From Acidobacteriaceae bacterium (lineage in GTDB: Bacteria; Actinomycetota; Actinomycetes; Mycobacteriales; Mycobacteriaceae), in NCBI GenBank assembly GCA_903970215.1, contig CAJCHX010000382.1:1-33669 (forward strand): 33,669 nt of DNA, written 5' to 3'. The translations under genes and the position numbers were made by a program. Numbering within the stretch: the stretch's first letter is position 1; each line of letters starts with the position of its first letter. Below are positions 2,560 through 32,229 of the stretch, in pieces. Under the pieces are notes generated by a model. It was not told the origin of the DNA, ran no database searches, and saw only the letters and a list, made by a program, of their open reading frames with translations.

Positions 2560-3909
2560 CTACCGTTCGGGTCCGCCGCGCTCCGTCGGCTGTTCCGGTC
2601 CGCGGTACACCTCGGGTGCGGCGGCGGGGCTGGGGAGCTCGACCGGCGACGCCGCCGACGGTGCTTGGGTCGCGGCCAACAGATCGCTGATCCGCGCGCG
2701 GGTATCCGCCGGCGCGGGAGGCTCGGGGCGATCGAGGCCGAGGATCTCGGTGCGGATGTAGGCGGCGAACCCCGGCGCGGTGAAGCTGAGTCTGCCGTAG
2801 CCGGCGTCCTCGATCAGGCCCTTGTCCTTGAGTGATTGTCGAGGCTTGCTGATGGCCTCGGTGCGCACGTTCAGGGCGGTGGCGATGTCTCGGCGGCGCA
2901 CGCTCGTGTCACCGAGCCCCGCCATGGCGACGAGCATCTGCATCTCGGATTCGGTGGCCTTGGACCACCGGGCCCGGAAGAACGCCGCCCGGGCCGGGGT
3001 GAACGTGGCGGCAGCCAACTCCACATGGTCGATCGTCAGCACGGAACCAGCCGCGGGGAACCCGGCGGCGGTCCACGTCTCGTCGCCGATGAGCTGAACG
3101 AAGAACGGATAGTTCTGGGCGAAGCCCAGCGCGCGCTCCGCCGCCGCGGGACTCCACGTGACACCGCGGCGCCCCGCCGGACCGGTCAGCGCGGTGATCG
3201 CGGCACCGTCGTTGAGGTTGCCCAGATGCACGTACTGGAATCGCTCGGCGAAAGAGACGGCGTCGGTGATGACGTCCTGGCTGTGGCTCAGGCCCGCAGC
3301 GAACAGCGCGGCCGGTAGAGCCGCGTCGTCGGCCTGCATGTTCTGCCACGCGTAGCCCAGAGCACGCAGGCCATCGGCATCGGCCGACTGGATCTCGTCC
3401 ACCAACACCACCAGGCCGGTCGCGTCGCTGCGCTGGGCCTGCTCGGCCGCGGCCCGGATCAGCCCCTGCAGCTCCCGACCCGCCGCGCGGCGGTAGGCCG
3501 TCGCGGCCGGATCGGTGGCCGTCTTGATCGACACCGGGCCGATGCCGATGCTCAGGTTCTTCACCGCCGCGTGGATCTGCTCCCGGGCGGAGTCCTGCCA
3601 GCGGCGACCCAGCGCGGTGAACTCCGCGCTCACCGTCTCCAGGAACGGGCGATCGCCGGCGGTGATGAACACCGTGGCGAATCCGCGACTCTGCGCGGCC
3701 TGCTCGTACGCCCTCAGCAGGCTGGTCTTGCCCACCCCGCGCGGACCGACGTCGACCCGGATGCGGCCGTTGAGCTTGTGGAAGGTCTGAACGTACGACA
3801 GACGTTCGTCGATCGCGTGCAGCTGGACGGCCCGTCCGGGAAGCTCCACCGCGAGGTCGGCGATGACCCCCGGCGTGTACGGGCTGGGCTGCTGCGACGA
3901 GGTCACCAT
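2560..3909 (-). CDS. AAA+ ATPase with winged-helix tail, copy 1
   Basis: 449 residues. Walker A GPRGVGKT at 55-62 and Walker B VVLVDEIQ with DE at 171-172 place it in the ATPase group with an AAA_16/Orc-like P-loop and a C-terminal winged helix (about 315-390, containing RRRDIATALNVRTEAI and LIEDAGYGRLSFTAPGF). The Pro/Ala-rich tail ends EVYRGPEQPTERGGPER. A close paralogue is encoded at 29867-31231. ATG 3909 and GTG 3906 are alternative starts. The gene is monocistronic, with a 20-bp perfect palindrome starting 18 bases upstream, so autoregulation or use as a plasmid-specific DNA site is plausible. The molecular role is unknown; plasmid maintenance or a regulatory ATPase are guesses. Confidence 0.8.
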   Translation of the reverse strand: MVTSSQQPSPYTPGVIADLAVELPGRAVQLHAIDERLSYVQTFHKLNGRIRVDVGPRGVGKTSLLRAYEQAAQSRGFATVFITAGDRPFLETVSAEFTALGRRWQDSAREQIHAAVKNLSIGIGPVSIKTATDPAATAYRRAAGRELQGLIRAAAEQAQRSDATGLVVLVDEIQSADADGLRALGYAWQNMQADDAALPAALFAAGLSHSQDVITDAVSFAERFQYVHLGNLNDGAAITALTGPAGRRGVTWSPAAAERALGFAQNYPFFVQLIGDETWTAAGFPAAGSVLTIDHVELAAATFTPARAAFFRARWSKATESEMQMLVAMAGLGDTSVRRRDIATALNVRTEAISKPRQSLKDKGLIEDAGYGRLSFTAPGFAAYIRTEILGLDRPEPPAPADTRARISDLLAATQAPSAASPVELPSPAAAPEVYRGPEQPTERGGPER

Positions 3910-3927
3910 GCCACCCTACCCACACCA

Positions 3928-3974
3928 CGGGATAGGTTGGGATAACTAGGGCCGAGTTATCCCAACCTATCCCG
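3928..3974. promoter_or_regulatory. 20-bp perfect palindrome upstream of ATPase copy 1
   Basis: CGGGATAGGTTGGGATAACT (3928-3947) is repeated as its exact reverse complement at 3955-3974 around a 7-base spacer. The same architecture, with 18-bp arms and the same spacer length, precedes the paralogous ATPase at 31258-31300. Conservation of the palindrome outside the coding region suggests a protein-binding operator or centromere-like site. Confidence 0.7.
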
Positions 3975-4116
3975 CCGGGCCGAAACGGGTCATCACGCCC
4001 GCCTGGGTCGGGTAGATCGATGGCGGCGCCGGTGTCATACCCAGCGTGTAGAGAGGAGAGTCAGGAAGGAAGTCTCATGGGTCCACGGACGATCCGCAAA
4101 AGGTGAGCACGAGAGG

Positions 4117-4497
4117 ATGGATGATTCAATGAGTTCACAGACCGAGACAGAAGCGGCTTCGCAACTGCGTGCATGGGCGAAGGGCATCTACCCCACGGAG
4201 GCCGGCGTCGAACTGCTCGTGCGCCACGGGCGCATCGTCTACGAGGCCGCGCCGTGGGTCCGCCGCGCCGACGACGGGTCGGCCGCGTGGATCGACCCCA
4301 CCAGTCTGCTCGAAGACGCGGGCCCGCTGTCAGGCAGCGAACAGCGCGTCGTGGCGATCGCCGCGAGTCTGCTCGGAGGGCCTCCAGTTGACCTGTCCGA
4401 AGTGCTCAGCAGCCTCGACCCCGCCACCTCGGACCTCGTCCTCGCCTCGCTCGCGCACGCCGCCGGCGGGGCACGCCGTTATCCCACCGCCCGCTGA
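4117..4497 (+). CDS. Hypothetical soluble protein, 126 aa
   Basis: Encodes SQLRAWAKGIYPTEAGVELL then LVRHGRIVYEAAPWV and a C-terminal helical part (SGSEQRVVAIAASLLGG, DLVLASLAHAAGG). GAGAGG at 4111-4116 abuts ATG 4117, so the in-frame ATG at 4129 (MSSQTETEAA) is the better-spaced start. No membrane segment or signal peptide. I do not recognise the family. It is transcribed away from the ATPase gene, with the palindrome between them, so the palindrome could influence both. Confidence 0.6.
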   Translation: MDDSMSSQTETEAASQLRAWAKGIYPTEAGVELLVRHGRIVYEAAPWVRRADDGSAAWIDPTSLLEDAGPLSGSEQRVVAIAASLLGGPPVDLSEVLSSLDPATSDLVLASLAHAAGGARRYPTAR

Positions 4498-4629: not shown

Positions 4630-4725
4630 ATCACGGATGGCGAGCTGCGCGGCGAAGTCCAATTCGCGGGTATCAAGAAGTTCGCGTTGCATGGTCGACC
4701 AGAACGATTCCATCATGGTGTTGCA
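4630..4725 (-). pseudogene. IS3-family transposase fragment
   Basis: The minus strand reads CNTMMESFWSTMQRELLDTR followed by ELDFAAQLA. This matches the conserved NAMMESFWSTMQRELLD stretch near the C-terminus of IS3-type OrfB transposases. Only about 30 codons remain. The fragment ends against a 19-bp perfect hairpin (4720-4761). No terminal repeats are identifiable. Confidence 0.6.
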
Positions 4726-4761
4726 CCCCGGGTTTGGTGAAGACCAAACCCGGGGTGCAAC
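4720..4761. other. Perfect 19-bp inverted repeat with 4-base loop
   Basis: GTTGCACCCCGGGTTTGGT (4720-4738), loop GAAG, then the exact reverse complement (4743-4761). It sits at the broken edge of the IS3 transposase fragment. There is no T-tract on either side, so a classical terminator is less likely than a rearrangement scar or fold-back junction. Confidence 0.6.
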
Positions 4762-4843
4762 AGGGTGTGTCCGACGTCCGGTATAGGCGTCCTCGCCCGA
4801 CCGCGGTTTCCGCGTACGTGATCTACGCCAATCCGGGGCAACG

Positions 4844-6853: not shown

Positions 6854-7915
6854 CTACGCCAACCTGAGGCTGCTGTGCAGGAACGGACTGCAGGTTTTCA
6901 GGGTCTTCTGGACAGGGCTCGTCTCGAGCGTGCGGATGGAGTCCAGCGTGCTGAGACTATGGGCCAGGTAGTCATGCAGTTCAGCGGGAGTCCTGCACAA
7001 GACGAGGGCCACCAGGTTGGTCGGGCCGGTGGTAGAGGCCAGGAAGGCTAGTTCCCTGTGTTGGATCAGGGTTCTCGCTACCTGGTCCAGGTGCGCGGGG
7101 GCGACCGACATCCACAGCAGGGCTTGCGTTGTTATGCCGTATACTTCCGCACCGATCTCGACGTCAAAGGTGAGAATGCCGCCCGCCCGCAAAGCAGCGA
7201 GTCGGCGCGTAACGGTCGACGATGACAGGCCGGTCTCGGCGGCGAGGTCTGTGTAGCTGATTCGGCCGTTACGCTGCAACGTGGCCAGCAGGTGCCAGTC
7301 CGTCTGGGTCAGGGACGTGAGGGGCTCGTGTTCCTCAGCGCCATCTGACGAGTGGAATGCTTGGTGGAGTTCCTCCTGCTGCCCGTCGGTGAGAGCGGTC
7401 GTGTGCCCCTGCCATGCGGTGGGACCGCCTAGATAGGCATGCAGCAGGCGGTGCGCCGACACCTCGGTGATGCTGACCGCGCGAGGAATCTCGTGGAACA
7501 GCAGCGAATGGTGCGCCGCAGAGTCCGTGACCGTGACGAAGCAGATTTCGTTTCCCCCGGACATGCGCCGTACCCATGTGGTGTCGTCACGCCGAGCCAG
7601 GCTCTCCGCCACACGCTGAGCGGTGTTCGGGCTGGCCGTGAGTCTCAGAATCCATTTCTCGCCTGACGACCGACGCGGGTTCACCACCCCGACAACGCGA
7701 AGCGACATCTCGCTGCTCAGCCGCCGGTAGCGACGGGCGACGGTCTGCGTGGAGACGTCCAGAACCTCGGCGATCCGGCTGAACGGCACCCGACCGTCTA
7801 TACGCAGGGCATGAATAATGCACTGGTCCAGTTCATCGACTCTGGAGACCACTGTCTCAGCAAAATGGCCCTCTGGCCGCCTCGGGCCGGGGACGCTCAG
7901 TAAGGTTTGCGACAC
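6854..7915 (-). CDS. Lrp/AsnC regulator with two tandem AsnC modules
   Basis: 353 residues, about twice the usual Lrp length. Module 1 has a helix-turn-helix at about 27-66 (VDELDQCIIHALRIDGRVPF, IAEVLDVSTQTVARRYRRL) and a ligand-binding RAM-like half. Module 2 repeats the pattern from about residue 201 (LTQTDWHLLATLQRNGRISY, LAAETGLSSSTVTRRLAAL), followed by a second effector half. Both HTHs look intact. Lrp proteins bind DNA as oligomers and respond to amino acids or other small molecules. It lies immediately downstream of the phenazine operon and is transcribed separately, with its own TATAAT box, so it is the best candidate pathway regulator in the window. The effector is unknown. Confidence 0.85.
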   Translation of the reverse strand: MSQTLLSVPGPRRPEGHFAETVVSRVDELDQCIIHALRIDGRVPFSRIAEVLDVSTQTVARRYRRLSSEMSLRVVGVVNPRRSSGEKWILRLTASPNTAQRVAESLARRDDTTWVRRMSGGNEICFVTVTDSAAHHSLLFHEIPRAVSITEVSAHRLLHAYLGGPTAWQGHTTALTDGQQEELHQAFHSSDGAEEHEPLTSLTQTDWHLLATLQRNGRISYTDLAAETGLSSSTVTRRLAALRAGGILTFDVEIGAEVYGITTQALLWMSVAPAHLDQVARTLIQHRELAFLASTTGPTNLVALVLCRTPAELHDYLAHSLSTLDSIRTLETSPVQKTLKTCSPFLHSSLRLA

Positions 7916-7931
7916 CCGTTTTCCTAGTTCC

Positions 7932-7966
7932 CGCTAATAGCGATTGTCTGGGTTGGAACGATTATA
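7932..7966 (-). promoter_or_regulatory. Promoter of the Lrp-type regulator gene
   Basis: On the minus strand a perfect TATAAT lies at 7966-7961, about 45 bases before ATG 7915. A small palindrome CGCTAATAGCG (7932-7942) sits between it and the start codon, where an autoregulatory site could be. No good -35 hexamer is visible. The rest of 7967-8159 shows nothing else. Confidence 0.4.
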
Positions 7967-8159
7967 GCAGTGCTTATTAATTGGTGTTCTGCGAAGTCCG
8001 CTCCCGCCAGGCCGAGACCAGCGGGGTGTTGCCGTACGAAGCGGTGCTCGACCGACTCGTACAGCGCCCGAGCTTCTTTGCTGCGGGTGGTCGGGCCTCT
8101 GTGCTGTCTTCAACTGAGAGCTGCACCTCCTATAGGAACGGCAGAGAACCTGTGACGGT

Positions 8160-9542
8160 TCACATCGTCGACGTGGCGATGCCTTTGCTCCACATGAGGA
8201 AGTCGCCGAGGAACCCGTCGTGGGGGACCCCGGTCGCCATCCAGTAGGTATGCCGGTCGCCGAGGTAGACATTGCGGATCGTCGGCTCGTCCACCAGGCG
8301 GCCCACCAGCTCGCCGTCCCGAGTAAGTACGGTGAGTACCAACGTGTCGCGCAATGGTGCTACATCGGCGGTGCGTGTCCAGGGGGCGACCCAGACACAG
8401 GGGAACGGCAGCTCGATGCCGATCTGCGGGGCGGTGGGGTCGCCCACCTCGAACACGGCCGGACGGAGGGCCGCACTGCCGTCGCCGAGCTCGTCGACGA
8501 CGCCGTCGCCGCCGAGCCAGGCCCGCGTGCCTGTCGCAGTCTTCAGGAGGTAGCTCTCAATCGCCCGGGCGGCTCGCACCTGCTGAATCGGGAGGATCGC
8601 CTTGGGGTGCTCTGGAGGCAGGCTGGGTATCACTGCCAGTCGCTCGGCGATGGCCTCGGCGAGTGGCCCTGGGTCGCCCTCGATGAGCACGGCACTGGTG
8701 TTCACGCAGCCGGTGCCTCCGTGGTCGGCCGCCGACTCGACGATAACGTCCAGGTGCCGCCGCCAGTCGGTGTCAGCGGTGATGAGGATTTTCGACCGCC
8801 CCGGTCCTTGCGGTAACACCTGGCTGCCTCGGTACTTCTCCACGACGTCGGCGCCGCCGTAGACCATCCCCAGGTCCGCGCCGGTTAACACCGCGTCGGC
8901 ACCGACGTGGTCGGTGGGCAGCAATACCACGTGGTCGGCCGGGAATCCGGCGGTGCGCAGCGCGGTGATCAGCCGATACGGGGTGAACGGATCCCGACTG
9001 GACGGGCGGACCGCAACCCGGTAGCCCAACGCGAGCGCCTCCGGCCAGATGGCGTGGGTGCCCGGATGGTTTCCTGCCGCATGGACCGCGAACACCGACC
9101 CACGCCGGACCCAGACAGCTCCCCCGGTTCGCGTGGAAGGATCCCGCCAGTCCGTCGACGCTCCCATGGGACGGGCTTGGTGAGCGCTGTCGAAGGCGTT
9201 TGCCACCCGCTGCGCCACTGTGCCGTTCGCCTCCCGCACCGACGAGATCGGCACCCCGCCGGCCCGGCTGACTGCGTGCTGGTAGTCCGCAGGGGAAAGC
9301 CCGCCGATGGTGGCGTGCTCGAACAATTCAGCTGCCTCCGCCAGTAGGGCAGCTCGGTCTGCCGCCGGCAGCGTCTCGGCACGGTGCAGCGCGGCCATCG
9401 CTCGATGGACGAACAGCGGCGGGACCAGGCTCACCTCGGCGAGGCCGGCACCGCTGACATCGGTGACCGACAGCCGGTTCGCCGCCCGGAACTCACCGGA
9501 CGGCCCCAGTGCTGGAATTTCGATCGGGGCACAGCCGATCAT
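8160..9542 (-). CDS. LuxC/EhpG-like acyl reductase (phenazine carboxylate reduction)
   Basis: 460 residues with the aldehyde-dehydrogenase-like fold of LuxC acyl-CoA reductases. The probable catalytic cysteine is Cys279 in HGGTGCVNTSAV; the nucleotide-binding part includes VFAVHAAGNHPGTH (150-163) and the middle has LGMVYGGADVVEKYRG. Its start overlaps the stop of the EhpF-like gene (TGATG), so the two are translationally coupled. In Pantoea, EhpF and EhpG are proposed to convert phenazine-1,6-dicarboxylate to the 6-formyl compound via an adenylate. By homology and position this protein should do the NAD(P)H-dependent reduction step. Substrate identity here is inference; a fatty-acyl substrate is the alternative. 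Confidence 0.8.
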   Translation of the reverse strand: MIGCAPIEIPALGPSGEFRAANRLSVTDVSGAGLAEVSLVPPLFVHRAMAALHRAETLPAADRAALLAEAAELFEHATIGGLSPADYQHAVSRAGGVPISSVREANGTVAQRVANAFDSAHQARPMGASTDWRDPSTRTGGAVWVRRGSVFAVHAAGNHPGTHAIWPEALALGYRVAVRPSSRDPFTPYRLITALRTAGFPADHVVLLPTDHVGADAVLTGADLGMVYGGADVVEKYRGSQVLPQGPGRSKILITADTDWRRHLDVIVESAADHGGTGCVNTSAVLIEGDPGPLAEAIAERLAVIPSLPPEHPKAILPIQQVRAARAIESYLLKTATGTRAWLGGDGVVDELGDGSAALRPAVFEVGDPTAPQIGIELPFPCVWVAPWTRTADVAPLRDTLVLTVLTRDGELVGRLVDEPTIRNVYLGDRHTYWMATGVPHDGFLGDFLMWSKGIATSTM

Positions 9543-10642
9543 CAGTACACACCCTCGATGACGGCCTCGTCCTCGAAGGTTGCGACCGGCGCGATGTCAG
9601 CCACCGAGTCGCCGACGGCGCCCATGACGGTCGTCATCCGGGTGGCCAGATCCCGTTCGAGGTTGTTGGGGAGAAGAAAGGACTTGCTCACGTGGTTGAC
9701 GACAACCTGGCCGCGCTGCCCGTACGGCACGGGCTCGCCCGTCGTCGCGTCGACGACAGTGAAGGTGATGTATGGCGAGAAGGCGTCGAAGACGCACGGC
9801 GAGCCGCTGTCCAGGCCCACGCGTTCACCTGCGACGCCGATCATCATCGTGCTGCCGTACTCACCGCATATCGCCGTGTCCGGGAAGATCTCGTTCTTGA
9901 ACAGATTGCGGGAGTCCGGGTCCATCTGTGTCCCGCCCCAACGGATTGCCCTGACCTTGGAGTTCACCAAGTCGACCAGCGCGTCGTCGCGGGCGATGCG
10001 CTCGAGCAGCGGAGGGGTGATCGTAAGTAGGCCGACATCCTGGGTGCGCAGCACGTCGACAGCTTGGTCGATGACATGCCCGGCATAGGCGTCCGCGTCG
10101 TCGAACCGCTTGTCGGCGATGAGCTTCTTGACCCAGCGTGGATCCAGGTCGACCGAAAAGCCGTGCGTGCCATGCGTGCGGGCGTGCCGATCGAACAGCG
10201 CGGCGACGACATGGGGACCGGTCGGGATGATACCCAGCCAGTTCACGCCGCGCGGGACTCCGTGCCGGTCCAGACGCGCGTTACTCCAGGACACCATGCG
10301 CTCCAGCCAGTCCCTCATCACCACGACCCTCTTCGGGATGCCCGTGGTGCCGCCGCTCTCGTAGAACCCGATCACATCCGGCACCTTCCCGTAGCCCTTC
10401 GGAATCAGGTCCTCGGCCCGGGCCTCGCGAAGCTCGGGGGCGACGTTCGGGAACAGCCGCAAGTCCGCGTGGGTACGCACGTCGGCTCGCGGGTCGAACC
10501 CGAGCGTCTTCGCCCGCTCCAGCCAGAACGCGCAGCCGGTCTCAGCGTTGAAGTGCCATTCCATCGCCGCCCGAATGAACTCGTCTGGGTCGGGCGCGAC
10601 ATCGAAGGGGAGATCCAAGATCTCCTCGGTCACATTGATCAT
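9542..10642 (-). CDS. EhpF/LuxE-like adenylating enzyme, truncated ANL fold
   Basis: 366 residues. The ANL-superfamily P-loop is GFYESGGTTGIPKRVVV (92-108), with later motifs IRWGGTQMDPDSR and CGEYGSTMMIGVAG. The length (about 41 kDa) matches EhpF of the D-alanylgriseoluteic acid pathway, described as an ANL enzyme lacking the C-terminal domain that normally handles CoA transfer. It is expected to adenylate a phenazine carboxylate and pass it to the coupled LuxC/EhpG-like reductase. It is the penultimate gene of the phenazine operon, 51 bases after phzG. The alternative is a LuxE-type acyl-protein synthetase acting on fatty acids. Confidence 0.8.
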   Translation of the reverse strand: MINVTEEILDLPFDVAPDPDEFIRAAMEWHFNAETGCAFWLERAKTLGFDPRADVRTHADLRLFPNVAPELREARAEDLIPKGYGKVPDVIGFYESGGTTGIPKRVVVMRDWLERMVSWSNARLDRHGVPRGVNWLGIIPTGPHVVAALFDRHARTHGTHGFSVDLDPRWVKKLIADKRFDDADAYAGHVIDQAVDVLRTQDVGLLTITPPLLERIARDDALVDLVNSKVRAIRWGGTQMDPDSRNLFKNEIFPDTAICGEYGSTMMIGVAGERVGLDSGSPCVFDAFSPYITFTVVDATTGEPVPYGQRGQVVVNHVSKSFLLPNNLERDLATRMTTVMGAVGDSVADIAPVATFEDEAVIEGVY

Positions 10643-10693
10643 CGGCTGTATTGCCTTTCTCGGTGTATCGATTGAGCCGGTTCTCGGTCGCTC

Positions 10694-11374
10694 TTAGGGC
10701 TGAAGTCGGCTTGTCTGCCAGCCGTCCGGACCGAGGTCGTACCGCAGGCGTCGGTGCAGACGATCGGACGCCGCGCACCAGAACTCGACCACCGCCGGCC
10801 GCAGGCAATAGCCGACGAAGGAATCCGGCCGCGGAAGCGCTCGGTTCAGCATCTCGAGCTCGAAGGCTTCGGCCCGCAGCGCGGCTACGTCAGCCAGGGG
10901 TGCGCTCTGATGACTGACGCTCGACATGGCGTGCAGCGGGATCGGCCGGGCCTCCCACAGCGCGTCGGACTCGCATTCCGGCACCGGCGTCACCGGACCG
11001 GACAGAATGAGTTGCTGGCCGGTCTCCCGCCAGTAGAGCAGCCCGGACGCCCAGCCTGTCGCGGCCATCTCACGGCCCTTCTGGCTGCCGCTGTGACTGG
11101 CGAAGACCAGTCCTTGATCGGTAATCGAGATGATCACCACGATGCGGTTGGAGGCGATGCCACGGACATCTGCGGTGGCCAGTGCCAATGCCCTCGGTTC
11201 GCGGACACCGCGCTCGACGGCTTCTTCCAGCCAGCTGCGCACCAGGTCCAGCGGGTGCGTCGGTGGCCGGTCGTACTCGGGGAAGTCGAGATCGACGACT
11301 CCCCCGAGTGACTCGAACCGGCTCGATGTCGAGCTCGTGCCTTCTAGTTTCGTATCGTACCGACCCGTGACCAT
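10694..11374 (-). CDS. phzG: PhzG, FMN-dependent phenazine-forming oxidase
   Basis: 226 residues from ATG 11374 (MVTGRYDTKLEG), chosen because AAGGAG (11386-11381) sits six bases upstream; the frame stays open much further but only antisense to phzF. The fold is that of pyridoxamine 5'-phosphate oxidases: LALATADVRGIASNRIVVI, LVFASHSGSQKGREMAATGW, and the C-terminus VVEFWCAASDRLHRRLRYD. PhzG oxidises the unstable tricyclic intermediates to phenazine carboxylates using FMN and oxygen. It follows phzF by 29 bases and precedes the EhpF-like gene. Confidence 0.92.
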   Translation of the reverse strand: MVTGRYDTKLEGTSSTSSRFESLGGVVDLDFPEYDRPPTHPLDLVRSWLEEAVERGVREPRALALATADVRGIASNRIVVIISITDQGLVFASHSGSQKGREMAATGWASGLLYWRETGQQLILSGPVTPVPECESDALWEARPIPLHAMSSVSHQSAPLADVAALRAEAFELEMLNRALPRPDSFVGYCLRPAVVEFWCAASDRLHRRLRYDLGPDGWQTSRLQP

Positions 11375-11403
11375 GCAGGGCTCCTTGTTGAATTCGGGTA
11401 CTA

Positions 11404-12237
11404 CTAGATGCAGAGAGTTCCGCGGGCGACCACGACGCCGTGGCCACTGACGTTCACGGCCGAGACCTGCCCGCCACCACCCCAGGCGATGGCCCGCATC
11501 AGCGAAGGACGTCCCAGTTCGATTCCCTGTTCGATCTCGATGTCCTGCTCCCATCCGGCCAGACCGTGTCTGGCTAGGTGGATCGCCAGCGGTCCGGCGG
11601 CGGAACCTGTCGCCGCGTCCTCGACCACCCCGTAGGCCGGCGAGAACATCCGGATTCGCCATCGCGCTCCGGCACCGGCGAAGCAATTGACCGCCATGTC
11701 CGGGAAGCGGGCCAAAGCCCGGTGGTCGGGGAACAGCGCGGAGAGCGCCGGAGTGTCCGGCAGTCCGACGAACACGTGCCGCGGGCCGTTCCGATATGCC
11801 TCCACCGGCGCGATCGAGGTCTCCACGCCGAGCGCCTCCAGCAGTTCGGGGCCGTGCTCGTACAGCTCCCAGCGGGGCAGCGGCTGCTCCATCCAGACCT
11901 CGGTGGCGCCGTCGTCGGTGTCGATCCGGAACGGGATGACACCAACTTCGGTCTCCAGTCGCAGCTTGTACTGGCCGAACCTCTCGGCGAGCGCCACGGC
12001 GGTGCCGAGCATCGGATGCCCGGCGAAAGGCAGCTCGTTGACCGGAGTGAAGATGCGGATGTGAGCGTCGCCGCCGCACTTCGGCGGCAGGACGAAAGTG
12101 GTTTCGGAGAGGTGCATCTCATTGGCGATGCGCTGCATCAGGCCGGTGGTGAGGTCCTCGCCGTCGAAGAACACCGCGACTGGATTGCCGTCGAGCGGCC
12201 GACGGGCGAACGAGTCGACGACCACATAATCGTGCAT
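11404..12237 (-). CDS. phzF: PhzF, DHHA isomerase
   Basis: 277 residues from ATG 12237 (MHDYVVVDSF), matching the roughly 278 of Pseudomonas PhzF. The upstream in-frame extension is rejected because it runs into the 97-aa gene's end. The catalytic glutamate is exactly Glu45 in MHLSETTFVL, and the C-terminal signature VVEDAATGSAAGPLAIHL carries the conserved Asp. PhzF converts trans-2,3-dihydro-3-hydroxyanthranilate to the ketone that dimerises to the phenazine skeleton. It lies 43 bases after the YdhR-like gene and 29 before phzG. Confidence 0.95.
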   Translation of the reverse strand: MHDYVVVDSFARRPLDGNPVAVFFDGEDLTTGLMQRIANEMHLSETTFVLPPKCGGDAHIRIFTPVNELPFAGHPMLGTAVALAERFGQYKLRLETEVGVIPFRIDTDDGATEVWMEQPLPRWELYEHGPELLEALGVETSIAPVEAYRNGPRHVFVGLPDTPALSALFPDHRALARFPDMAVNCFAGAGARWRIRMFSPAYGVVEDAATGSAAGPLAIHLARHGLAGWEQDIEIEQGIELGRPSLMRAIAWGGGGQVSAVNVSGHGVVVARGTLCI

Positions 12238-12280
12238 GCTGATTCCGCTCGGATTGCCGGTAATGGATGGTGGCCGAGGT

Positions 12281-12574
12281 TCACGAGTGATTCCCCTCGG
12301 CAGTGCCGACCACATCGAACCGAGTCCGGTGGGTCGGTGGGCGGCCGATCAGCTCCGCTGCCCGGTTCGGTGGCAGCAGCCGATCGGCGGGAACGTAAAG
12401 GTCCCACCACATCACGGCACCCCAACGGCGGTTCTCGCGGTCCGCGATCCAGAGCTTCACACGCAGGCCCTCGACCTCGTACCAGGCATCGATCGAGTTC
12501 CGCATATCCTGTTCGAGCGCCTCGATCGTCACGTCGGAATCAGTCAGGTCCCACCACGCGATGGTGACTGTCAT
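12281..12574 (-). CDS. YdhR-like dimeric alpha/beta-barrel protein within the phz operon
   Basis: 97 residues, [20 protein letters not shown] onward. The middle, EVEGLRVKLWIADRENRRWG with a following MWWDLY strand, fits the pattern of YdhR-type putative monooxygenases (GL.wK.Wi......G..yl). The C-terminus FDVVGTAEGN matches the last barrel strand. The ATG overlaps the phzE stop (TGATG), so translation is coupled to phzE. It is not part of the core phz set known from Pseudomonas. It could be a small oxygenase, a cyclisation helper or a protective protein; no catalytic residues can be assigned. Confidence 0.65.
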   Translation of the reverse strand: MTVTIAWWDLTDSDVTIEALEQDMRNSIDAWYEVEGLRVKLWIADRENRRWGAVMWWDLYVPADRLLPPNRAAELIGRPPTHRTRFDVVGTAEGNHS

Positions 12575-14448
12575 CAGTCGAGCACCCCCCGGATCGAATC
12601 CGCGATCAGGCGCGGCCCATCGACGGTGAGCACCGACTCCGCATGGAATTGCATCGACGCGAAACGCGGGCCGCGCAAGGCGTACACCTCGCCAGTCTCG
12701 GGGTTCTGGCTCACCTCGACCGGGCCGATGCCATCGACCTCGATCTTGTCCTGATCGCAGAAGGCTGCGAAGGTGTTGTAGAAACCGACCCGCTCGCGGA
12801 CGCCGAACAGATCGAGCTCCCGCGCTAGACCTTGGTTGGGCGGCTGCAGGCGACGTAGTTCGAGGCCGAGCCGGATGCTCAGTACCTGGTGACTCAGGCA
12901 CACAGCAAGCAGTGGCCGATGTGCCGCCAGTGCGGCATCCAGCGCCGACCGAAGGTGCGCGATCTTGGGGTGTGCGGCGATCTGCGGATCCCCAGGACCT
13001 GGACCCAGCACGATCAGGTCGTACCTGTCGATGTCGTAGGGCTCATCGAAGCGCCGCACCTCCACCGCTAGCCCGAGCGACTCGAGTTGCGCGGCCAGCA
13101 TCGCGGTGAAGGTGTCCTCGGCGTCGATGATCAGGGCCGACACACTCGGCAGCTTCGGCACTCCCGAGCAGAGCTGGTCGCGTTGCCCGATCCAGAAGTC
13201 GGAGACCCTCTCGTTCCGGCGCAGCAGCGCGGCACGAACCTCCGGGTGCGTCCCGAAACCGGTGGTGCCTGCCTGTGGCGGCTCCAACGCGTCGAGCAGG
13301 CTGGCGATCTTGGCTCGGGTCTCGGCTGCCTCGGCCGACGGGTCAGAGTGGCGGACCAGGGTTGCGCCGACGTCGATCCGCATCCGGCCGCCGACGTCGA
13401 TCTCGGCCGTGCGGATGAGGATCGAGGAGTCGAGCTGGCGATCACCCTGCGGGTTGCGGCCGATCAGGGCGACGACGCCACTGTAATAGCGGCGACCGTG
13501 CGGCTCGTACCGCGCGATCACTCGGGCGGCGCTCTCCAGCGGGCTACCTGTGACTGTGGGAGCGAACATCGTCTCCCGCAGGATCTCCCGCACGTCCATC
13601 TCGGTCTGGCCCTCGATCAGGTACTCGGTGTGCGCTAGTCGTTTCATCTCTTTAAGGTCCGGACCGACTATCCGACCGCCGTTAGGACAGATCCGCGACA
13701 TCATCTTCAGTTCCTCGTCGACCACCATGAACAGCTCGTCCGTCTCCTTGCCGTCGGCCAGGAAGTCCAGGACACCTTGGAGGGTGGGCCCGCTGCTCGG
13801 GTACCGATAAGTACCGCTGATCGGATTCATCACAGCGGTCCCGTCGCGCAGCGAGACATGCCGCTCGGGTGTCGCGCCGATCAGCGACCTCTTCCCGTCA
13901 TGGATGATGAAGGTCCAGTAGGCTCGCTGTTCTCGCTGTAGCAGCCGCCGGAAGAACGAGAGCGCGGCCTGCGACGTCCAATCGCTGATGTCTGCCAGGA
14001 AGGATCGTTTGATGACGAAGTTGGCACCCTCACCCCTGCCGATCTCGTCGCCTACGATCCGCCGAACCAGATCTGCGTAGGTGTCGTCGTCGAGATCGAA
14101 GTGTCCCCCGACCGGAACGGTCGGTGAATTCGGCAGGCGAGATAGCGCGACGGCGACCGGCACCTGGTCCTGGCTCCCGACGGTCATCACCAGCAGCGGG
14201 GTTCCGTCCTTCGGTGCATCGAATCCGCGCTCTGCCAGCTGCTGGTACGGCACGACCGCCAGGACATCCCAGCCCTCGGCATCGGCCGCGAGCGGGATCT
14301 CCGACAACGACTCAACCTCGCTCACCTCGCCCACCAGCACGTCGAGCATGCCCGCGACGCCACTCTCGGGCCGGCTGACGAGCGCGAAGGCGGGGGTCTG
14401 GGCCGTGAGGATCCGGCCGAGCAGATCACGGTCGGCGGGCGCCGTCAC
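12574..14448 (-). CDS. phzE: PhzE, ADIC synthase (chorismate amination)
   Basis: 624 residues from GTG 14448, which overlaps the phzD stop (GTGA); the longer frame upstream is antisense-like read-through inside phzD. The N-terminal chorismate-utilising domain has [37 protein letters not shown] and [20 protein letters not shown]. It is fused to a class I glutamine amidotransferase with VLGPGPGDP, nucleophile Cys517 in LAVCLSHQ, and His602/Glu604 in MQFHAES. The length compares with about 637 for Pseudomonas PhzE. It makes 2-amino-2-deoxyisochorismate from chorismate and glutamine, the committed step. Confidence 0.95.
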
Positions 14449-15068
14449 TGGAGCACGTCTTCGGTCAGGACCACCATCGCGCAGCACAGAGCCGCATACG
14501 CGAGTGTGTGGTGGTGGTCTGCTTCGGTGAAGTCGCCGACAGCATCGGCGACCAGGAACGGCTGGATGTCGTGGCTGAACGCATCCAGCGCCGTTGTCAG
14601 CACGCCGACATGCGCGTACACGCCGGACAGGATGAGCTGGTCGCGACCGGCCGAACGCATCCGCGCCAACAGATCGGAGTTGTGGAACGCGCTGTAGCGC
14701 CACTTGGTCAGCGACCAGTCGGAAGCGGCCGGTGCCAGCTCGGGGACCACCGCGCGCTCGTTGGGTTCGGTGCTCATGCCGGGTCCCCAGAAGTCCTTCA
14801 GCAGTCCCCGCTGTTGGTCGGTCATCCGCCCGGGTTGTGCCGTGTAGGCGACTGGCACGTCGAGGACGTCGCACTGCTTGCGCAGCAGTGCGACGTTGTG
14901 TACCAGTTCGTTACGCAACGGCGACGCCAGCGGCTTCAGGAAGAAGCTCTGCATGTCATGCACCAGGAACACGGCGCGTTCCGGATCGACGGTCCACTGC
15001 GCGACATTGGCGGGCAGCGTTGCTCGGGTCGGCATCGGATACGAGGGGATCCGTGGGATTTCAGCCAT
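14445..15068 (-). CDS. phzD: PhzD, ADIC hydrolase (isochorismatase family)
   Basis: 207 residues, [19 protein letters not shown], the usual PhzD length. The catalytic residues fall at the canonical positions: Asp38 in [10 protein letters not shown] and Lys122 in LTKWRYSAF. The SGVYAHVG segment has Tyr where cysteine-dependent relatives have Cys, as expected for a hydrolase acting without a nucleophile. It cleaves pyruvate from ADIC to give trans-2,3-dihydro-3-hydroxyanthranilate. A good Shine-Dalgarno (AAGGAG) precedes ATG 15068. It is 18 bases after phzC and overlaps phzE by four bases. Confidence 0.95.
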
Positions 15069-15086
15069 CGGGATACTCCTTCCTTC

Positions 15087-16397
15087 TCAGTTGTGGGTCT
15101 CTCCGCTCGGCACGGCAAGGGCCGCACCGACTCGATCCGCTGCTGTCGTCCACGCGCCAACCACGTCCGCGGCCTGGTCGGCGTTGAGCCGGGGGTCACA
15201 CAGACTCGTCCAGCGCCCGGAACCCCGCTGGGCCTCGAACGTGTCGGCGACGCATTCGAGCACGTCGTCCGGGGTCGTCTCGAGGTGCAAGCCGCCGGCC
15301 ACCCCGCCCGCCAGTTCGACCGCACGCCGGAAGGCGCGCACTTCCCTGATGATGGTGGTCAGGTACCTGGTCTTGCGCCCCTCAGGGGTAACGGTGTTGT
15401 TGCCGTGCATCGGGTCACAGAGCCAGATCACCGGGTGGCCGGCGGACCTCACGGCCGTCACGAGCCCGGGCAACTTGGTGGCGACGGTGTCGGCGCCCAT
15501 CCGGGAGATGAGGGTGAGCCGACCGGGTTCCCTGTTCGGATCCAGGAGATCGCATAGCAGGGTGATTTCACCGGCGCTCATGCTCGGGCCGACTTTGCAG
15601 GAGACCGGGTTGGACACCTGCGCGAGCAAGGCAAGATGCGGACCGTGCAGCTGACGGGTCCGCTCGCCGATCCAGGGCCAATGGGTGGAACTTAGCCAGA
15701 GCCTGCCATCGGAATGCTTCCGCACCAGGGGCTGCTCATAGTCCAACAGCAGAGCCTCGTGACTGGTCCACACGGTCGGCCGACTCGACTCTGCTCCGTC
15801 CGGTCGCCAACCCAGCCGCGCCATGATCTCTCCGGCCGCGCTGAAGCCGGAGAGCAGCCGCAACGGGTCGGGACGACGGCTCTCGAGATCTGGCTCGGGG
15901 CCGTTGATGAGCTGGCCGCGGAAAATCGGCAGCTTCACTCCGTCGATCGACTCTGTGTCCTTTGACCGGGGCTTAGCGAATTGCCCGGCGATCCGCCCGA
16001 CCCGCAGCACAGGTATCCCCGCGGCATGCTCCAGCACGTCGGCGAGCCGTTCGAGCAGTTCGGTCTTGGCCGCGACGTGTTCTGCGGTGCGTTCCGCCGG
16101 ATCCTCCGCACAGTCTCCGACTTGCAGCACCAGCAGTTCGCCGCGGGCAGCATCGGAGAGTCGGCGGTGAAGCCTGTCGACGTCGGCGAGTTGGACCAGC
16201 GGGGTGCACGACGCCAGGAGTTCGCGCGTCAACCGGATCTGCTCCGGGTTCTCCCAGATCGGCTGTTGGGGGGCCGCCCAGCGGATCTCCAGGCCGAGGA
16301 TGTCCCCGATCGACTGATTCTCTCTCTTGGTTGGTGCGCCGCGGATTCTGTCGCGTATTGTTACTCGATCGATGTGAGTGTTCCGCTGCGGAGTCAT
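15087..16397 (-). CDS. phzC: PhzC, class II (plant-type) DAHP synthase
   Basis: 436 residues. Class II DAHP synthase signatures are present in order: VLQVGDCAED with a metal-ligand Cys, RVGRIAGQFAKPRS, THWPWIGERTRQ, NPVSCKVGPSMS, LISRMGADTV, VIWLCDPMHGNN and GGLHLETTPDDV. It condenses phosphoenolpyruvate and erythrose-4-phosphate, boosting shikimate flux to chorismate for the pathway. ATG 16397 overlaps the phzB stop (ATGA). The N-terminus is short, lacking the long regulatory extension of primary-metabolism enzymes, which may mean relaxed feedback inhibition (inference). Confidence 0.93.
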   Translation of the reverse strand: MTPQRNTHIDRVTIRDRIRGAPTKRENQSIGDILGLEIRWAAPQQPIWENPEQIRLTRELLASCTPLVQLADVDRLHRRLSDAARGELLVLQVGDCAEDPAERTAEHVAAKTELLERLADVLEHAAGIPVLRVGRIAGQFAKPRSKDTESIDGVKLPIFRGQLINGPEPDLESRRPDPLRLLSGFSAAGEIMARLGWRPDGAESSRPTVWTSHEALLLDYEQPLVRKHSDGRLWLSSTHWPWIGERTRQLHGPHLALLAQVSNPVSCKVGPSMSAGEITLLCDLLDPNREPGRLTLISRMGADTVATKLPGLVTAVRSAGHPVIWLCDPMHGNNTVTPEGRKTRYLTTIIREVRAFRRAVELAGGVAGGLHLETTPDDVLECVADTFEAQRGSGRWTSLCDPRLNADQAADVVGAWTTAADRVGAALAVPSGETHN

Positions 16398-16885
16398 GTC
16401 GGGATTCCGGCACGCCGGATGGTTGGTATAGCGATGCCCAATGCTCGGTACTGCTCGATTGGGTTCATGAATTCGCGCTGCTGCTTGATCTTCCCGTTCT
16501 CGAACAGGAAGGAGTGCAGGAAGTGGTTGCGGTAATAGCCTATCGGGTAACCTGGGAACACGATCTGGCCTTCGCCGTCACACTCGGCCCAGAATCGGTT
16601 CGGGTCCTGGGTGTCGAATATCTCGACGTTGGTCCAGGCCCAGTCAGGAAAGCACTGCAGCGACCATACGCCGTGCTCCCCCAGCCGGTCCCGGCCGGTG
16701 ATCGCGATCGGCTGGCCGGTGTCATTGGTCCAGAGGCCGCCGACGCCATCTTCAGTGAACAGCAAATGGCGACGCAACCGGTCTTCCCCGCGTGTGGTCA
16801 GATAGGTTTCGACGATCGCGCGGTTGTGCCGGCGCACCTCGTCATCGGTCGGCGGAACGTTCGTGGCAGGTTCGGTGTTGAGCAC
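16394..16885 (-). CDS. phzB: PhzB (PhzA/B family), phenazine condensation catalyst
   Basis: 163 residues of the NTF2-like PhzA/B family: DDEVRRHNRAIVETYL, RLLFTEDGVGGLWT-type segment (here RRHLLFTEDGVGGLWT), SLQCFPDWAWTNVEIF, and PGYPIGYYRNHFLHSF followed by QQREFMNP. His71 and Glu138 align with the acid/base residues described near 73 and 140 in Burkholderia PhzA. It catalyses joining of two aminoketone molecules to the tricyclic precursor. Only one A/B copy is present, as in most non-Pseudomonas clusters. It lies 153 bases downstream of the monooxygenase and overlaps phzC by four bases. Confidence 0.92.
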   Translation of the reverse strand: MLNTEPATNVPPTDDEVRRHNRAIVETYLTTRGEDRLRRHLLFTEDGVGGLWTNDTGQPIAITGRDRLGEHGVWSLQCFPDWAWTNVEIFDTQDPNRFWAECDGEGQIVFPGYPIGYYRNHFLHSFLFENGKIKQQREFMNPIEQYRALGIAIPTIRRAGIPT

Positions 16886-17038
16886 GCTCGTATCTCCCTA
16901 CTTGTGATGCGGTGGCCACAGTCCCAGCGCATGCCGGGACCTGAGGTAGGTGTGGTGGTGCGAATGGCGCGGTACAGAGCGACCCTGCCCCGACCGCGCT
17001 GGAATCGGTGTGCGATGAAAAAGGAGAAGCCGTTCTTG

Positions 17039-18409
17039 TCAGCGGCGACGGCGCAGGTTTCCGGCCAGGACCCGCGCCATAGTTCCGGGCCGCATCAGCG
17101 TGGTCGGAAGGACGAGTAGGTACTGCACCTTCAAGAACCGCTCCGCCAGAACACTGTCGCGCTCAGCGGCGGTCAAGACCATGTTGATATATGCGTTGAC
17201 CATCCGCACTGAGAGCGGGCGGGGTCCTTCGACTTGCGGAATGGACAGGTCGCTTCCAGTGGCCATCTGCCACGTGACACCTAGCGGCTTCGACACAGCC
17301 TTGAAAAACCGCTGGGCCAGCCGGTCCGTGCCGTCCTGAAGCGTTTTCTGGAGGGTCTCCGCCTGGATGGCGGCCACGGTCATGCCCTGGGCATAGATCG
17401 GGTTGAAACTGCAGATCGCATCACCGACGACAAGCAGGCCTTCTGGGAACCGGGACAGCTTCTCGTACCGACGACGTATGGTCGCCGGGAACCGATGCGC
17501 AACAGCCTCGCTTAGCGGCTCCGCGTCGCGGATCGACGCGAACACGTGTGGCGGGACGATCGGCTCGGCGAACGCCAGGAACCCGGCCTGGTCGGTCGGC
17601 GGGTGGTGGCCGCCGTATCCGATCAGGGTCAAAATCCAACGGCCGTCTTCCTGCTCCAGGTATTCGGCACCGGTCGGCCGCGTCGGAGTGTGCCCAATGA
17701 TCACGACCTTCTCCCTGCCCATCGAGCCGGGGGCAGGCCGAAGGTACTGGCTGACATACAGGAGGTCGACCTGCAGCGACTCCTCCGGCGGGAGTTGGTA
17801 CCCCATCGCGTCCAGCCACTTGGTAGCTCGTCCGGCGCGCCCGGTCGCGTCGACCACCAGGTCGGCGTGTACGAGATCGGTAGTACCGTCCCCGGCGTAC
17901 AGGACCTCGACGCCGAGAACCCGTGCATTGTCATCGGTCGTTTCCAGACCGACCACCTGACAGCCGTCGATCAGCTTGACATTCGGCAGTCCCATGACCC
18001 GGGTGCGTACCAAGCTCTCCAGGTGCGGCCGACTAGGCTGGTATGTGTCGGAAAGTTCGGTGTACTCACCCGTCATGCAGAGCAGATGGCCGCCCAGGTT
18101 GTTCCGCAATTCGGCGGGCGAACTGACGATCGGCGCCCCACCGGCCACGAAATCCTCAAGCAGCCCCGGAAACAGTTCCTCGAAAATCTCGGCTCCGCGA
18201 GAAAGCAGTCCGTGAGCGTGCCGCCCCTGCGGCACGCCTCGCCGAGCGGCGACGCCCACCTCCGACACCCGGTCCCGTTCGATCAGCGTGATGCGGTCGT
18301 ACACGTCCGCGAGGACCCTCGCCGCGAGAAGGCCGGAGACACTCGCGCCCAACACTACCGCGTGACCACCTACCCACCTGTTCGGCGCCGATACGCCGTT
18401 TTTGTCCAT
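17039..18409 (-). CDS. FAD-dependent monooxygenase, phenazine tailoring candidate
   Basis: 456 residues from ATG 18409 (MDKNGVSAPN), preceded by duplicated GAGGGGGAA elements; GTG 18427 is an alternative. The Rossmann FAD motif is HAVVLGASVSGLLAARVL (16-33), a GxSxxG variant. DLVVDATGRAGR lies at 184-195, and the second FAD motif GLLVVGDAICSFNPIYAQGM is at 324-343. PQGRHAHGLL near residue 60 is typical of the geranylgeranyl-reductase-like hydroxylase group. It is the first gene of the phz operon. It probably hydroxylates the phenazine ring or a precursor; decarboxylative hydroxylation like PhzS is one option, but sequence alone cannot decide. Confidence 0.82.
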   Translation of the reverse strand: MDKNGVSAPNRWVGGHAVVLGASVSGLLAARVLADVYDRITLIERDRVSEVGVAARRGVPQGRHAHGLLSRGAEIFEELFPGLLEDFVAGGAPIVSSPAELRNNLGGHLLCMTGEYTELSDTYQPSRPHLESLVRTRVMGLPNVKLIDGCQVVGLETTDDNARVLGVEVLYAGDGTTDLVHADLVVDATGRAGRATKWLDAMGYQLPPEESLQVDLLYVSQYLRPAPGSMGREKVVIIGHTPTRPTGAEYLEQEDGRWILTLIGYGGHHPPTDQAGFLAFAEPIVPPHVFASIRDAEPLSEAVAHRFPATIRRRYEKLSRFPEGLLVVGDAICSFNPIYAQGMTVAAIQAETLQKTLQDGTDRLAQRFFKAVSKPLGVTWQMATGSDLSIPQVEGPRPLSVRMVNAYINMVLTAAERDSVLAERFLKVQYLLVLPTTLMRPGTMARVLAGNLRRRR

Positions 18410-18412
18410 ACC

Positions 18413-18438
18413 ACTGTTCCCCCTCACTGTTCCCCCTC
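18413..18438 (-). repeat. Tandem 13-bp duplication of the ribosome binding site region
   Basis: ACTGTTCCCCCTC occurs twice in direct tandem (18413-18425 and 18426-18438), just upstream of the monooxygenase ATG. On the transcribed strand this gives two GAGGGGGAA Shine-Dalgarno-like elements. The nearer one is suitably spaced for ATG 18409 and the other for GTG 18427. Confidence 0.6.
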
Positions 18439-22445: not shown

Positions 22446-22631
22446 TACCGCTTGCTGCGTCTCCCAGAACGGTTGTCCCGTTGTACCGCTGTCACGTCAC
22501 GAGGCCCATGAGCCTTGCGCTCCACGGCATCTGGAACCACGCGGCGTGGCGCATGCCTTCCCGCGGATTATGAGTCAGCGTCCGGCAATCGAACAGATTC
22601 CGTAGTCCACCGACCATAAGGAGATGACCAA

Positions 22632-23381: not shown

Positions 23382-23439
23382 AACCGCTCGGCGTTCGGTC
23401 GCCGCGTTCGGCACACTCAGGACCGAAATACAGAGCCCA

Positions 23440-29866: not shown

Positions 29867-31231
29867 TCAGCGCTCGAGCCCGCCACCGTCGAGGCCTCGA
29901 CCACGGTCCCGGTAGATCACCGGGGGGACGACGCGCGGCGGACGCTCGGCGCGTGACGCAGGGGGCGTGGGGGCCTGCGTCGCCGCGAGCAACTCGGTGA
30001 TCCGCTGCCGATCGCCCGCCGGCGCGGGCTCGGCCGCGGGCAGCTCGTCGCGGTCGACACCGAGGATCTCCTCCCGGATGTACGCGGCGAAGCCGGGGGC
30101 GGTGAAGCTCAACCGGCCGTACCCGGCCTCCTCGATCAGGCCCTTGTCCATCAGGGACCGCCTGGCGTCACTGATGGACTCGGTGCGGGTACCGAGCGCG
30201 GCAGCGATGTCCCGGCGCCGCACATCCGTGTCCCCGAGCCCGGCCATGGCGGCGAGCATCTGCGTCTCGGCCTCGGTGGCTTTGGCCCACCGGGCACGGA
30301 AGAAACTGTTCTGGGTGGTGGTGAACGCGGCGGCGGCCGCCTCGACGTGACCGGCGGTGAGCGTGTCGCCGGGTGCGGGGAACCCGGCCGCCTTCCACGT
30401 CTCGTTGCCGATCAGCTGCACGAAGTACGGGTAGTTCTGGGCGAACGTCAGCGCCGCCGCCGCGGCGTCCGGACTCCAGGCGACGCCCCGCCGGCCGGCG
30501 GGACCGACCAGCGCGGTGATCGCCGCACCGTCATTGAGGTTGCGCAGGTGGTCGTACTCGAACCGTTCCGCGAACGACACCGCCGAGGTGATCACGTCCT
30601 GGCTGTGACTGAGACCGGCGGCGAACAGCGTGGCCGGCAGATCGGCGTCGTCGGCCTGCATGTTCTGCCAGGCGTAACCGAGAGCACGGAGCCCGTCCGG
30701 ATCCGCGGACTGGATCTCGTCGACGAACACCGCCAGGCCCACCGCATCGTTGCGGCGGGCCTGCTCGGTCGCGGCACGGATCAAGGTCTGCAGTTCCCGG
30801 CCCGCCCCGCGACGAGGCACAGCCGCGGCGGCGGGACCGGTCGCGGTCTTGATCGAGACCGGCCCGATGCCGATGGTCAGGTGCGCCACCGCCGCATGGA
30901 TCTGCGCGCGGGCGCTGTCCTGCCACCGGTGGCTGAGCGCGGTGAACTCCGCGCTCACCGTCTCCAGGAACGGGCGGTCCCCCGCCGTGATGAACACCGT
31001 GACGAAGCCCCGGTCCTGCGCGGCGCGTTCATAGGCGCGCAGCAGGCTGGTCTTCCCCACCCCCCGCGGCCCGACATCGACCCGGATCCGACCGTTGAGC
31101 TTCTGGAAGGACTGGACATACGACAGACGTTCGTCGATCGCCTGCAGCTGCGTGGCCCGCCCGGGGAGATCGACCGCCAGATCCGCGATCATCCCCGGGG
31201 TGTACGGACTGGGCTGCCGTGGAGAGCTCAC
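29867..31231 (-). CDS. AAA+ ATPase with winged-helix tail, copy 2
   Basis: 454 residues from GTG 31231 (VSSPRQPSPYTPG), chosen because it aligns with the start of copy 1; GTG 31255 would overlap the expected leader. Collinear with copy 1 throughout, probably about three quarters identical. Walker A VDVGPRGVGKTSLLRAYE and Walker B VFVDEIQSADPDG are intact. The C-terminal winged helix has RRRDIAAALGTRTESI and LIEEAGYGRLSFTAPGF. The Pro-rich tail differs, ending RDRGRGLDGGGLER. The same 7-base-spaced palindrome lies upstream. Two intact paralogues suggest different partners, hetero-oligomers or a merger of two plasmids. Confidence 0.8.
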   Translation of the reverse strand: MSSPRQPSPYTPGMIADLAVDLPGRATQLQAIDERLSYVQSFQKLNGRIRVDVGPRGVGKTSLLRAYERAAQDRGFVTVFITAGDRPFLETVSAEFTALSHRWQDSARAQIHAAVAHLTIGIGPVSIKTATGPAAAAVPRRGAGRELQTLIRAATEQARRNDAVGLAVFVDEIQSADPDGLRALGYAWQNMQADDADLPATLFAAGLSHSQDVITSAVSFAERFEYDHLRNLNDGAAITALVGPAGRRGVAWSPDAAAAALTFAQNYPYFVQLIGNETWKAAGFPAPGDTLTAGHVEAAAAAFTTTQNSFFRARWAKATEAETQMLAAMAGLGDTDVRRRDIAAALGTRTESISDARRSLMDKGLIEEAGYGRLSFTAPGFAAYIREEILGVDRDELPAAEPAPAGDRQRITELLAATQAPTPPASRAERPPRVVPPVIYRDRGRGLDGGGLER

Positions 31232-31257: not shown

Positions 31258-31300
31258 CGATAGGTGTCGATAACTCCGCCCGAGTTATCGGAACCTATCG
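31258..31300. promoter_or_regulatory. Palindrome upstream of ATPase copy 2
   Basis: CGATAGGTGTCGATAACT (31258-31275) faces AGTTATCGGAACCTATCG (31283-31300) with a 7-base spacer; two of 18 positions are mismatched. It corresponds to the perfect palindrome at 3928-3974, with GATAGGT and GATAACT cores conserved. Confidence 0.7.
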
Positions 31301-32222: not shown

Positions 32223-32229
32223 ATTCTGT

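Follow-up and report, generated by a model that had tools for sequence, protein, structure and literature searches.

Two genes for related AAA ATPases lie more than 25 kb apart in the window, by which we mean the whole 33,669-nucleotide stretch analysed here (contig C382 of a 4.99-Mb genome in 894 contigs), and each of them is preceded by a long palindrome built from the same short words. A preliminary description of this DNA proposed that gene and site belong together as a self-contained system, serving for example plasmid maintenance, copy control or a regulatory switch. Is this pairing kept in other genomes, which protein would read the palindrome, and which of the offered roles does comparison favor?

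Two ATPase genes and the palindromes upstream of them

ATPase 1 (2560..3909, minus strand) is a protein of 449 residues with an AAA_16 domain, the Walker A motif GPRGVGKTS, the Walker B motif DE and a C-terminal winged helix. ATPase 2 (29867..31231, minus strand) has 454 residues when counted from the GTG at 31231, a start that was picked by homology; a longer form from the GTG at 31255 is possible. Comparison of the two window proteins gave 77% identity, so the related pair of the preliminary description is real. Against Pfam, they score 41.4 and 45.5 bits with PF13191 (AAA_16), above the curated cut-off of 32.6, and 27.6 and 26.1 bits with PF01637 (ATPase_2), below its cut-off of 33.2. No NCBIfam model exceeded its own cut-off for either protein, and defence-system models gave weak matches only, to the Walker or the winged-helix part. 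ParA-type ATPases carry a deviant Walker A motif, KGGxGK; a ParA-type partition identity was rejected for the window ATPases on the form of their Walker A motif and because no ParA model matched either of them at E 0.01. The Walker A and Walker B residues do not vary in any of the 78 aligned sequences (L094, L102 and L147 being left out of that family alignment), hence nucleotide binding by the ATPase probably matters. The protein ends soon after the winged helix in 18 of 25 aligned sequences, with no sensor repeats seen. Among the records examined, the family is annotated mainly as “ATP-binding protein” or “AAA family ATPase”.

Re-reading of the window sequence bore out the palindromes as first described, in position, arm length, spacer and cores. 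Putative operator 1 (3928..3974, no strand assigned) is an inverted pair of tandem half-sites with perfectly complementary arms of 20 bp around a 7-bp spacer. Its cores are GATAGGT (3931-3937), GATAACT (3941-3947), AGTTATC (3955-3961) and ACCTATC (3965-3971), all four preceded by G when each is read 5' to 3' on its own strand. Putative operator 2 (31258..31300, no strand assigned) has arms of 18 bp with two mismatches, again around a 7-bp spacer; its cores are GATAGGT (31259-31265), GATAACT (31269-31275), AGTTATC (31283-31289) and ACCTATC (31293-31299), all four preceded by C in the same reading. Beyond that description, the starts of GATAGGT and GATAACT are 10 bp apart within each arm, which corresponds to one helix turn, and the second arm of each palindrome is the inverse of the first across the 7 bp. 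Operator 1 ends 18 bp from the ATG of ATPase 1, and operator 2 ends 26 bp from the GTG at 31231 of ATPase 2. No sigma-70-type promoter was recognised near operator 1. Alignment of the two window copies (2713-3971 against 30035-31299) revealed 79% identity over 1270 bp, and the similarity ends at the outermost core of the palindrome.

A search of the own genome with the full four-core pattern, allowing up to 3 mismatches, found three places, all without mismatch, and the reversed-pattern control found none; the palindrome pair in the window is not due to chance. Two of these places are the window sites, and the third lies on contig C860 (L167, 1-214), where the reading frame behind it matches the ATPase solely in the winged-helix part, from residue 327 to the contig end. 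This segment is 91% identical to ATPase copy 1, with homology that begins at the outer edge of the operator; the frame may be the remnant of a decayed copy, or it may encode a small DNA-binding derivative. Searched for by itself, with at most one mismatch, the arm recurs at the same three places and at C226:6023-6039. This last match belongs to an orphan operator-like palindrome (L193, 6022-6063) with 17-bp perfect arms and a shorter centre, which has C before each core, as in operator 2; tblastn found no ATPase gene on this 7.1-kb contig. In the genomes with a match to the site pattern (the own genome, G808, G789 and G011), the site adjoins an ATPase copy, with the exception of the C226 variant. 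A strict Tsukamurella site pattern is present in one of seven further genomes. As for circularity of the contig, no terminal overlap of at least 15 bp was found.

Conservation of the gene-site pair among relatives

Relatives of the ATPase occur in 98 of 151 related genomes at an E limit of 1e-3, the other 53 having none, and at an E limit of 1e-20 in 209 of 401 genomes of the family and 114 of 394 genomes of the class; some genomes have two or three. Plasmid records with a relative number 113 of 72,556. Among phage records there is one in 50,697, an unverified 5.9-kb scaffold, and none of 208 candidate stretches in viral contigs encodes a relative. Contigs longer than 1 Mb carry 12 of the 79 named loci. 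Given this spread through genomes and these large contigs, the ATPase gene is not confined to plasmids. Clustering of the surrounding reading frames revealed no conserved neighborhood, the most frequent neighbor being shared by at most 9 of the 79 named loci and, among distant relatives, by no more than 6 of 20 regions, with a tRNA in one of those 20.

To score upstream sites, we used a tandem-dyad score, which requires a tandem pair of half-sites together with its inverse, at several offsets and with a cut of at least 20, in a stretch of about 110 bp before the start codon. The central gap was allowed to be 2-19 bp in the named set, of which 78 of 79 loci were counted (L122 dropped), and 2-11 bp in a mixed set from earlier searches that includes more distant relatives. 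The mixed set counts 78 of 84 loci, after removal of the truncated copy L003, the duplicate L033, and L039, L048, L049 and L067, which are matches lacking the N-terminus; the two sets overlap in some genomes. At the offset of 10, the cut is reached by 67 of the 78 named loci, by none of 312 shuffles and by 3 of 312 gene-body windows, and the offsets 7, 8, 9, 11, 12 and 13 give 7, 5, 1, 0, 13 and 3 of 78. In the mixed set, the cut is reached by 25 of 78 loci at the offset of 10, by 0-3 of 78 at six other offsets and by 1 of 234 shuffles. A general palindrome score without the tandem model is weaker: for 34 of 78 loci, at most 2 of 40 shuffles reached the value of the locus. The conserved pair of gene and site that was first suspected is thus upheld by both sets. 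It had also been stated that the proposal would fall if homologous genes elsewhere lacked an upstream palindrome, and within the near clade most of them have one. The conserved operator-like site directly before the own gene, as expected of an autoregulator, is likewise found at those 67 named loci.

Eleven of the 78 named loci and 53 of the 78 mixed-set loci remain below the cut, and of these 53, 46 are at most 34% identical to the query and 7 are nearer. Among eight further actinobacterial plasmid relatives, five reach 20 at the offset of 10 and none at six other offsets, as a raw count without shuffles. Of seven Proteobacterial plasmid relatives plus the phage record, three (Pandoraea, Polaromonas and Microvirga) beat all 60 shuffles at the offset of 10 and five do not; the Polaromonas match consists mostly of repeated TATA words, and Pantoea scores 24 at the offset of 9 and 17 at the offset of 10. 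In some distant relatives the dyads are of other kinds, with CTAG at their core, and did not fit a single model. By eye, five loci of Mycobacteroides and its relatives (L109-L111, L114 and L117) seemingly have two tandem dyads upstream of the ATPase gene. No description of this ATPase-site pairing came up in searches of the open-access PMC literature, subscription journals lying mostly outside the scope of that search. The pairing is more general than the window alone could reveal, and by these sequence comparisons the unit of conservation is the gene together with its predicted operator.

Half-site letters and the predicted recognition helix

The half-site has the consensus [T/G][T/G]A[T/C]A[C/G]nTC. 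Of 80 rows, 72 were kept for the symmetry counts and 8 fell under the symmetry cut, and the counts are to be read with the fact that the site finder itself rewards symmetry. In the 72 rows, the two inner half-sites have the same base 67, 65, 72, 71 and 69 times at positions 1 to 5, 57, 44 and 43 times at positions 6 to 8, and only 20 times at position 9. The spacing between the inner 9-mers is 3-5 bp in 68 of the 72 rows, and 15 bp, about one turn more, in two. The bases of the half-sites differ between clades, and the half-sites of one locus change together with symmetry and spacing kept. If the ATPase reads these half-sites, its recognition helix is expected to change with them.

We therefore related protein columns to half-site bases by APC-corrected mutual information, in a first scan of 69 loci and a second of 84, most of them the same. 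The 84 loci derive from 96 proteins, 12 of which were left out because no site exceeded the cut or was looked for; 18 near relatives from genome searches were added by choice, others seeming to be duplicates or incomplete. In the 69-locus scan, the three highest-ranked columns of the entire protein were residues 355, 363 and 354, and in the 84-locus scan of the inner half-sites, residues 355, 354, 363 and 351 rank 1, 2, 3 and 6 among 374 columns. In the AlphaFold model, residues 351, 354 and 355 lie in the helix 350-362, and residue 363 follows just after it. This putative recognition helix corresponds to 2824..2862 on the minus strand in ATPase 1 (TEAISKPRQSLKD, with Lys at residue 355) and, placed by alignment with ATPase 1, to 30146..30184 on the minus strand in ATPase 2 (TESISDARRSLMD, with Asp at residue 355). 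The helix, 13 of the 374 columns, holds three of the ten highest-ranked (P 0.003 by a hypergeometric test that treats columns as exchangeable), and the whole winged helix, 78 of the 374, holds five of them (P 0.037). The outer half-sites gave a weaker signal, with two of their top ten columns in the helix (P 0.043) and P 0.35 for the whole winged helix. The wider stretch 349-363 has P 3e-4, for bounds chosen after residue 363 had ranked high. In random halves of the data, residue 354 ranked first in three of three, and residues 351 and 355 ranked 6 to 34. The mean of raw mutual information over entropy for the whole winged helix is not above that for the rest of the protein. A correlation analysis of the same kind appears in a published study of MerR regulators (PMC5045206).

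The pairs behind this ranking are almost free of exceptions. In the 69 rows, Ser354 goes with T at position 4 in 58 of 58 cases and Gly354 with C in 11 of 11, Arg355 goes with G at position 1 in 14 of 14, and Val355 or Met355 goes with T in 37 of 37; Asn351 goes with G at position 5. Exceptions are L060, with Gly354 and no C, and L117, with Ala355 and G. Independent base changes were counted on a tree of the ATPase part only, as changes with, against and without the residue. The counts are 3:0:0 for residue 354 and position 4, for Asn351 and position 5 and for residue 351 and position 6, 2:0:1 for Arg355 or Lys355 and position 1, and 3.4:0:1.6 for Val355 or Met355 and position 1; looser pairs are Asp355 with C (2:0:3) and Glu351 with G (2.4:0:3.6). 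As each residue-base pair has about two to four independent changes and none is significant alone on the tree, the significance rests on the column ranking and not on any single pair.

The two window copies differ in the same manner, Lys355 going with G and Asp355 with C at all four half-sites each. Other rows with Asp355 have C at both inner half-sites in L139 and L063, whose half-sites are the same, and at one in L154. One contig of Nocardioides silvaticus carries L139 and L163, with the inner half-sites CTATACTTC/CGATACTTT and TTACACAAG/TTACACATC, and their helices differ. On these sequence correlations, the window copies would look like paralogues that avoid cross-talk, insulated from each other by joint change of recognition helix and half-site. 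Such a pair would offer a natural experiment in the joint divergence of a regulator and its operator.

Proposed mechanism and alternative readings

The AlphaFold model (pLDDT 89.2, pTM 0.84) places the ATPase in a fold group that includes replication initiators and immune receptors. A PDB sequence search with the family profile gave weak matches, mostly to the Walker region (best E 0.0017), and Foldseek alone ranked RuvB first. The two best fold matches are the archaeal proteins PABY2304 (PDB 2qen; Z 23.5, 320 residues, rmsd 3.8) and SSO1545 (PDB 2fna; Z 22.9, 318 residues, rmsd 3.5). Both are Walker-type/AAA+ ATPases and the matches span nearly the whole model; they differ from the window ATPase in sequence, with an identity of only 12-14%, and we know of no operator for either. 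They score better than Aeropyrum ORC2 (1w5t, Z 21.1) and the S. solfataricus protein 2qby (Z 18.4). Archaeal Orc1/Cdc6 proteins have a DNA-binding winged helix and a gene beside the origin, and the window ATPase, with its gene likewise next to a site, may be of the same AAA and winged-helix build. However, the window site is a short tandem palindrome at the gene start that showed no sign of an origin, and the ATPase gene is optional and multi-copy in some genomes. STAND proteins such as plant NLRs and CED-4 also match the fold (Z 16-20), whereas the window ATPase family has no visible sensor repeats. MalT is an ATP-switched activator that acts on arrays of direct sites, and its likeness to the window ATPase is a functional analogy. 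Autoregulated transcription factors share the conserved upstream palindrome and the co-varying recognition helix; by contrast, no effector domain was recognised in the present protein, an AAA ATPase, and its own gene is the sole predicted target. A fold shared by a predicted model is in any case no proof of function.

Taken together, the palindrome probably serves the ATPase gene as its operator and is bound by the ATPase, gene and site forming an autoregulated unit. The conserved pairing, the geometry and the co-variation are shown by comparison of the aligned loci, and from them we strongly infer that the ATPase binds its own palindrome. In the mechanism that we propose, the recognition helix of the winged helix would read each half-site; on tandem half-sites one helical turn apart, two subunits would sit next to each other on one face of the DNA, and with the inverted pair the number of subunits would rise to four. 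The assembly of subunits on the site is probably under the control of the AAA domain, through its binding or hydrolysis of ATP. Binding most likely represses transcription of the ATPase gene, because the site stands directly before the start codon, where it is predicted to overlap or border the promoter and the leader. Repression, ATP control and four-subunit assembly are what we infer from this layout, and gene and site would act as an autoregulated unit without a fixed partner gene. Autoregulation, most likely as repression under ATP-state control, is the simplest account. Of the roles initially offered, a regulatory switch is the best supported, through the conserved pairing and the co-variation, and plasmid maintenance or copy control is less likely, in view of relatives on contigs longer than 1 Mb and of the lack of a common neighbor.

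A related reading takes the site for an origin of replication or a partition site, with the ATPase as initiator, motor or helper of a par system in the manner of archaeal Orc1/Cdc6; it draws on the ORC/Cdc6-like fold and on neighboring genes. Within about 3 kb of the ATPase gene, a ParA-like gene is found in 4 of 18 annotated plasmid regions (pTpau01, pTC1, pPV15 and pVQ28-1; loci L033, L035, L222 and L229), which has P 0.011 if the chance rate is 5%, a rate that is itself a guess. These four genes match ParA-family models, all under the curated cut-offs; the window has a ParA gene above its own cut-off at 32559-33278, 1.3 kb beyond ATPase 2, and pCPRO01 has a replication initiation gene 2.6 kb away. 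Yet the other 14 of the 18 regions, examined over 2 to 5 kb on each side, have no ParA-like neighbor, and relatives are absent from 53 of the 151 related genomes, present two or three times in some and located on contigs longer than 1 Mb at 12 of the 79 named loci. In addition, the site is usually a single dyad before the start codon, with seemingly two at some Mycobacteroides loci only. We therefore regard an origin or partition role as unlikely.

That some other protein, a host regulator or a neighboring gene product, binds the palindrome seems more doubtful still. A small divergent gene (4117-4497) does lie beyond operator 1, and binding by the ATPase itself is a prediction from sequence, but the neighbors vary, since the largest common cluster of reading frames covers 9 of 79 loci and is found in Nocardioides and Pimelobacter only, and the letters of the site track the recognition helix of the ATPase itself. 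The arms could also pair in RNA beside the start codon. Such a leader hairpin would act by termination or attenuation of transcription or by masking the ribosome-binding site, and some relatives, L093 among them, have an AGAGG-like stretch within the downstream arm or next to it. Nevertheless, no T-run terminator was found at 3800-4200 around operator 1, and symmetry is not kept along the whole arm, falling from 65-72 of 72 rows at inner positions 1-5 to 20 of 72 at position 9. The fixed 10-bp tandem offset and the bases tied to a protein helix are likewise expected of DNA binding and unlike a hairpin, which makes an RNA role very improbable. Least credible to us is that the palindrome forms one end of a small mobile unit of gene and site and is also needed for its movement. 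The homology of the window copies, and that of C860 with copy 1, starts at the outer edge of the operator, in several pairs of relatives the homology has its left end within 3 bp of the operator edge and its right end close to the stop codon, and C226 carries an orphan site. Selection on gene and operator with decaying flanks would give the same picture, however, and many of the sharp pairs have further homology nearby; as the sharp edge fits such selection, it is no proof of mobility. An IS30 transposase adjoins the Curtobacterium relative.

Under the autoregulatory reading, a large ATPase family gains a definite, predicted target on DNA together with a proposed protein-DNA code. A member that is small and solo and has a predicted site would be a convenient model for ATP-state control of DNA binding, given the initiators and immune receptors in its fold group. 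It is conceivable, at perhaps one chance in a handful, that ORC/NLR-fold ATPases of this kind are solo self-reading units with their own diversifying sites, and maybe a minimal DNA switch, driven by ATP, whose task goes beyond mere autorepression, for example to the detection of invaders or the marking of a replicon. In that case, C860 with its winged-helix-only frame and C226 with its orphan site would carry working parts, and such units would spread without fixed partner genes while their paralogues do not interfere.

Several further features of the window were observed. At 33200-33380, repeated ACAGAAATACAGAA-like words stand before the parA-type gene, a candidate partition site recognised by eye, with one inverted pair detected. 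The segment 31804-32479 contains repeats of pieces of the ParA/ribbon-helix-helix region (32223-32932) that are 85-91% identical, and it is probably a decayed duplicate. Between the two ATPase genes lies a phenazine gene cluster (6857-24910) with PhzA/B, a class-II DAHP synthase, an isochorismatase (PhzD-like) and PhzF. Around it are an AsnC-type regulator, an aldehyde dehydrogenase that adjoins an AMP-binding protein (just under the cut-off), a GMC oxidoreductase and an MFS transporter. A second perfect 20-bp palindrome (TGTTGCACCCCGGGTTTGGT) with a 4-bp loop is located at 4719-4762 and is unlike the operators.
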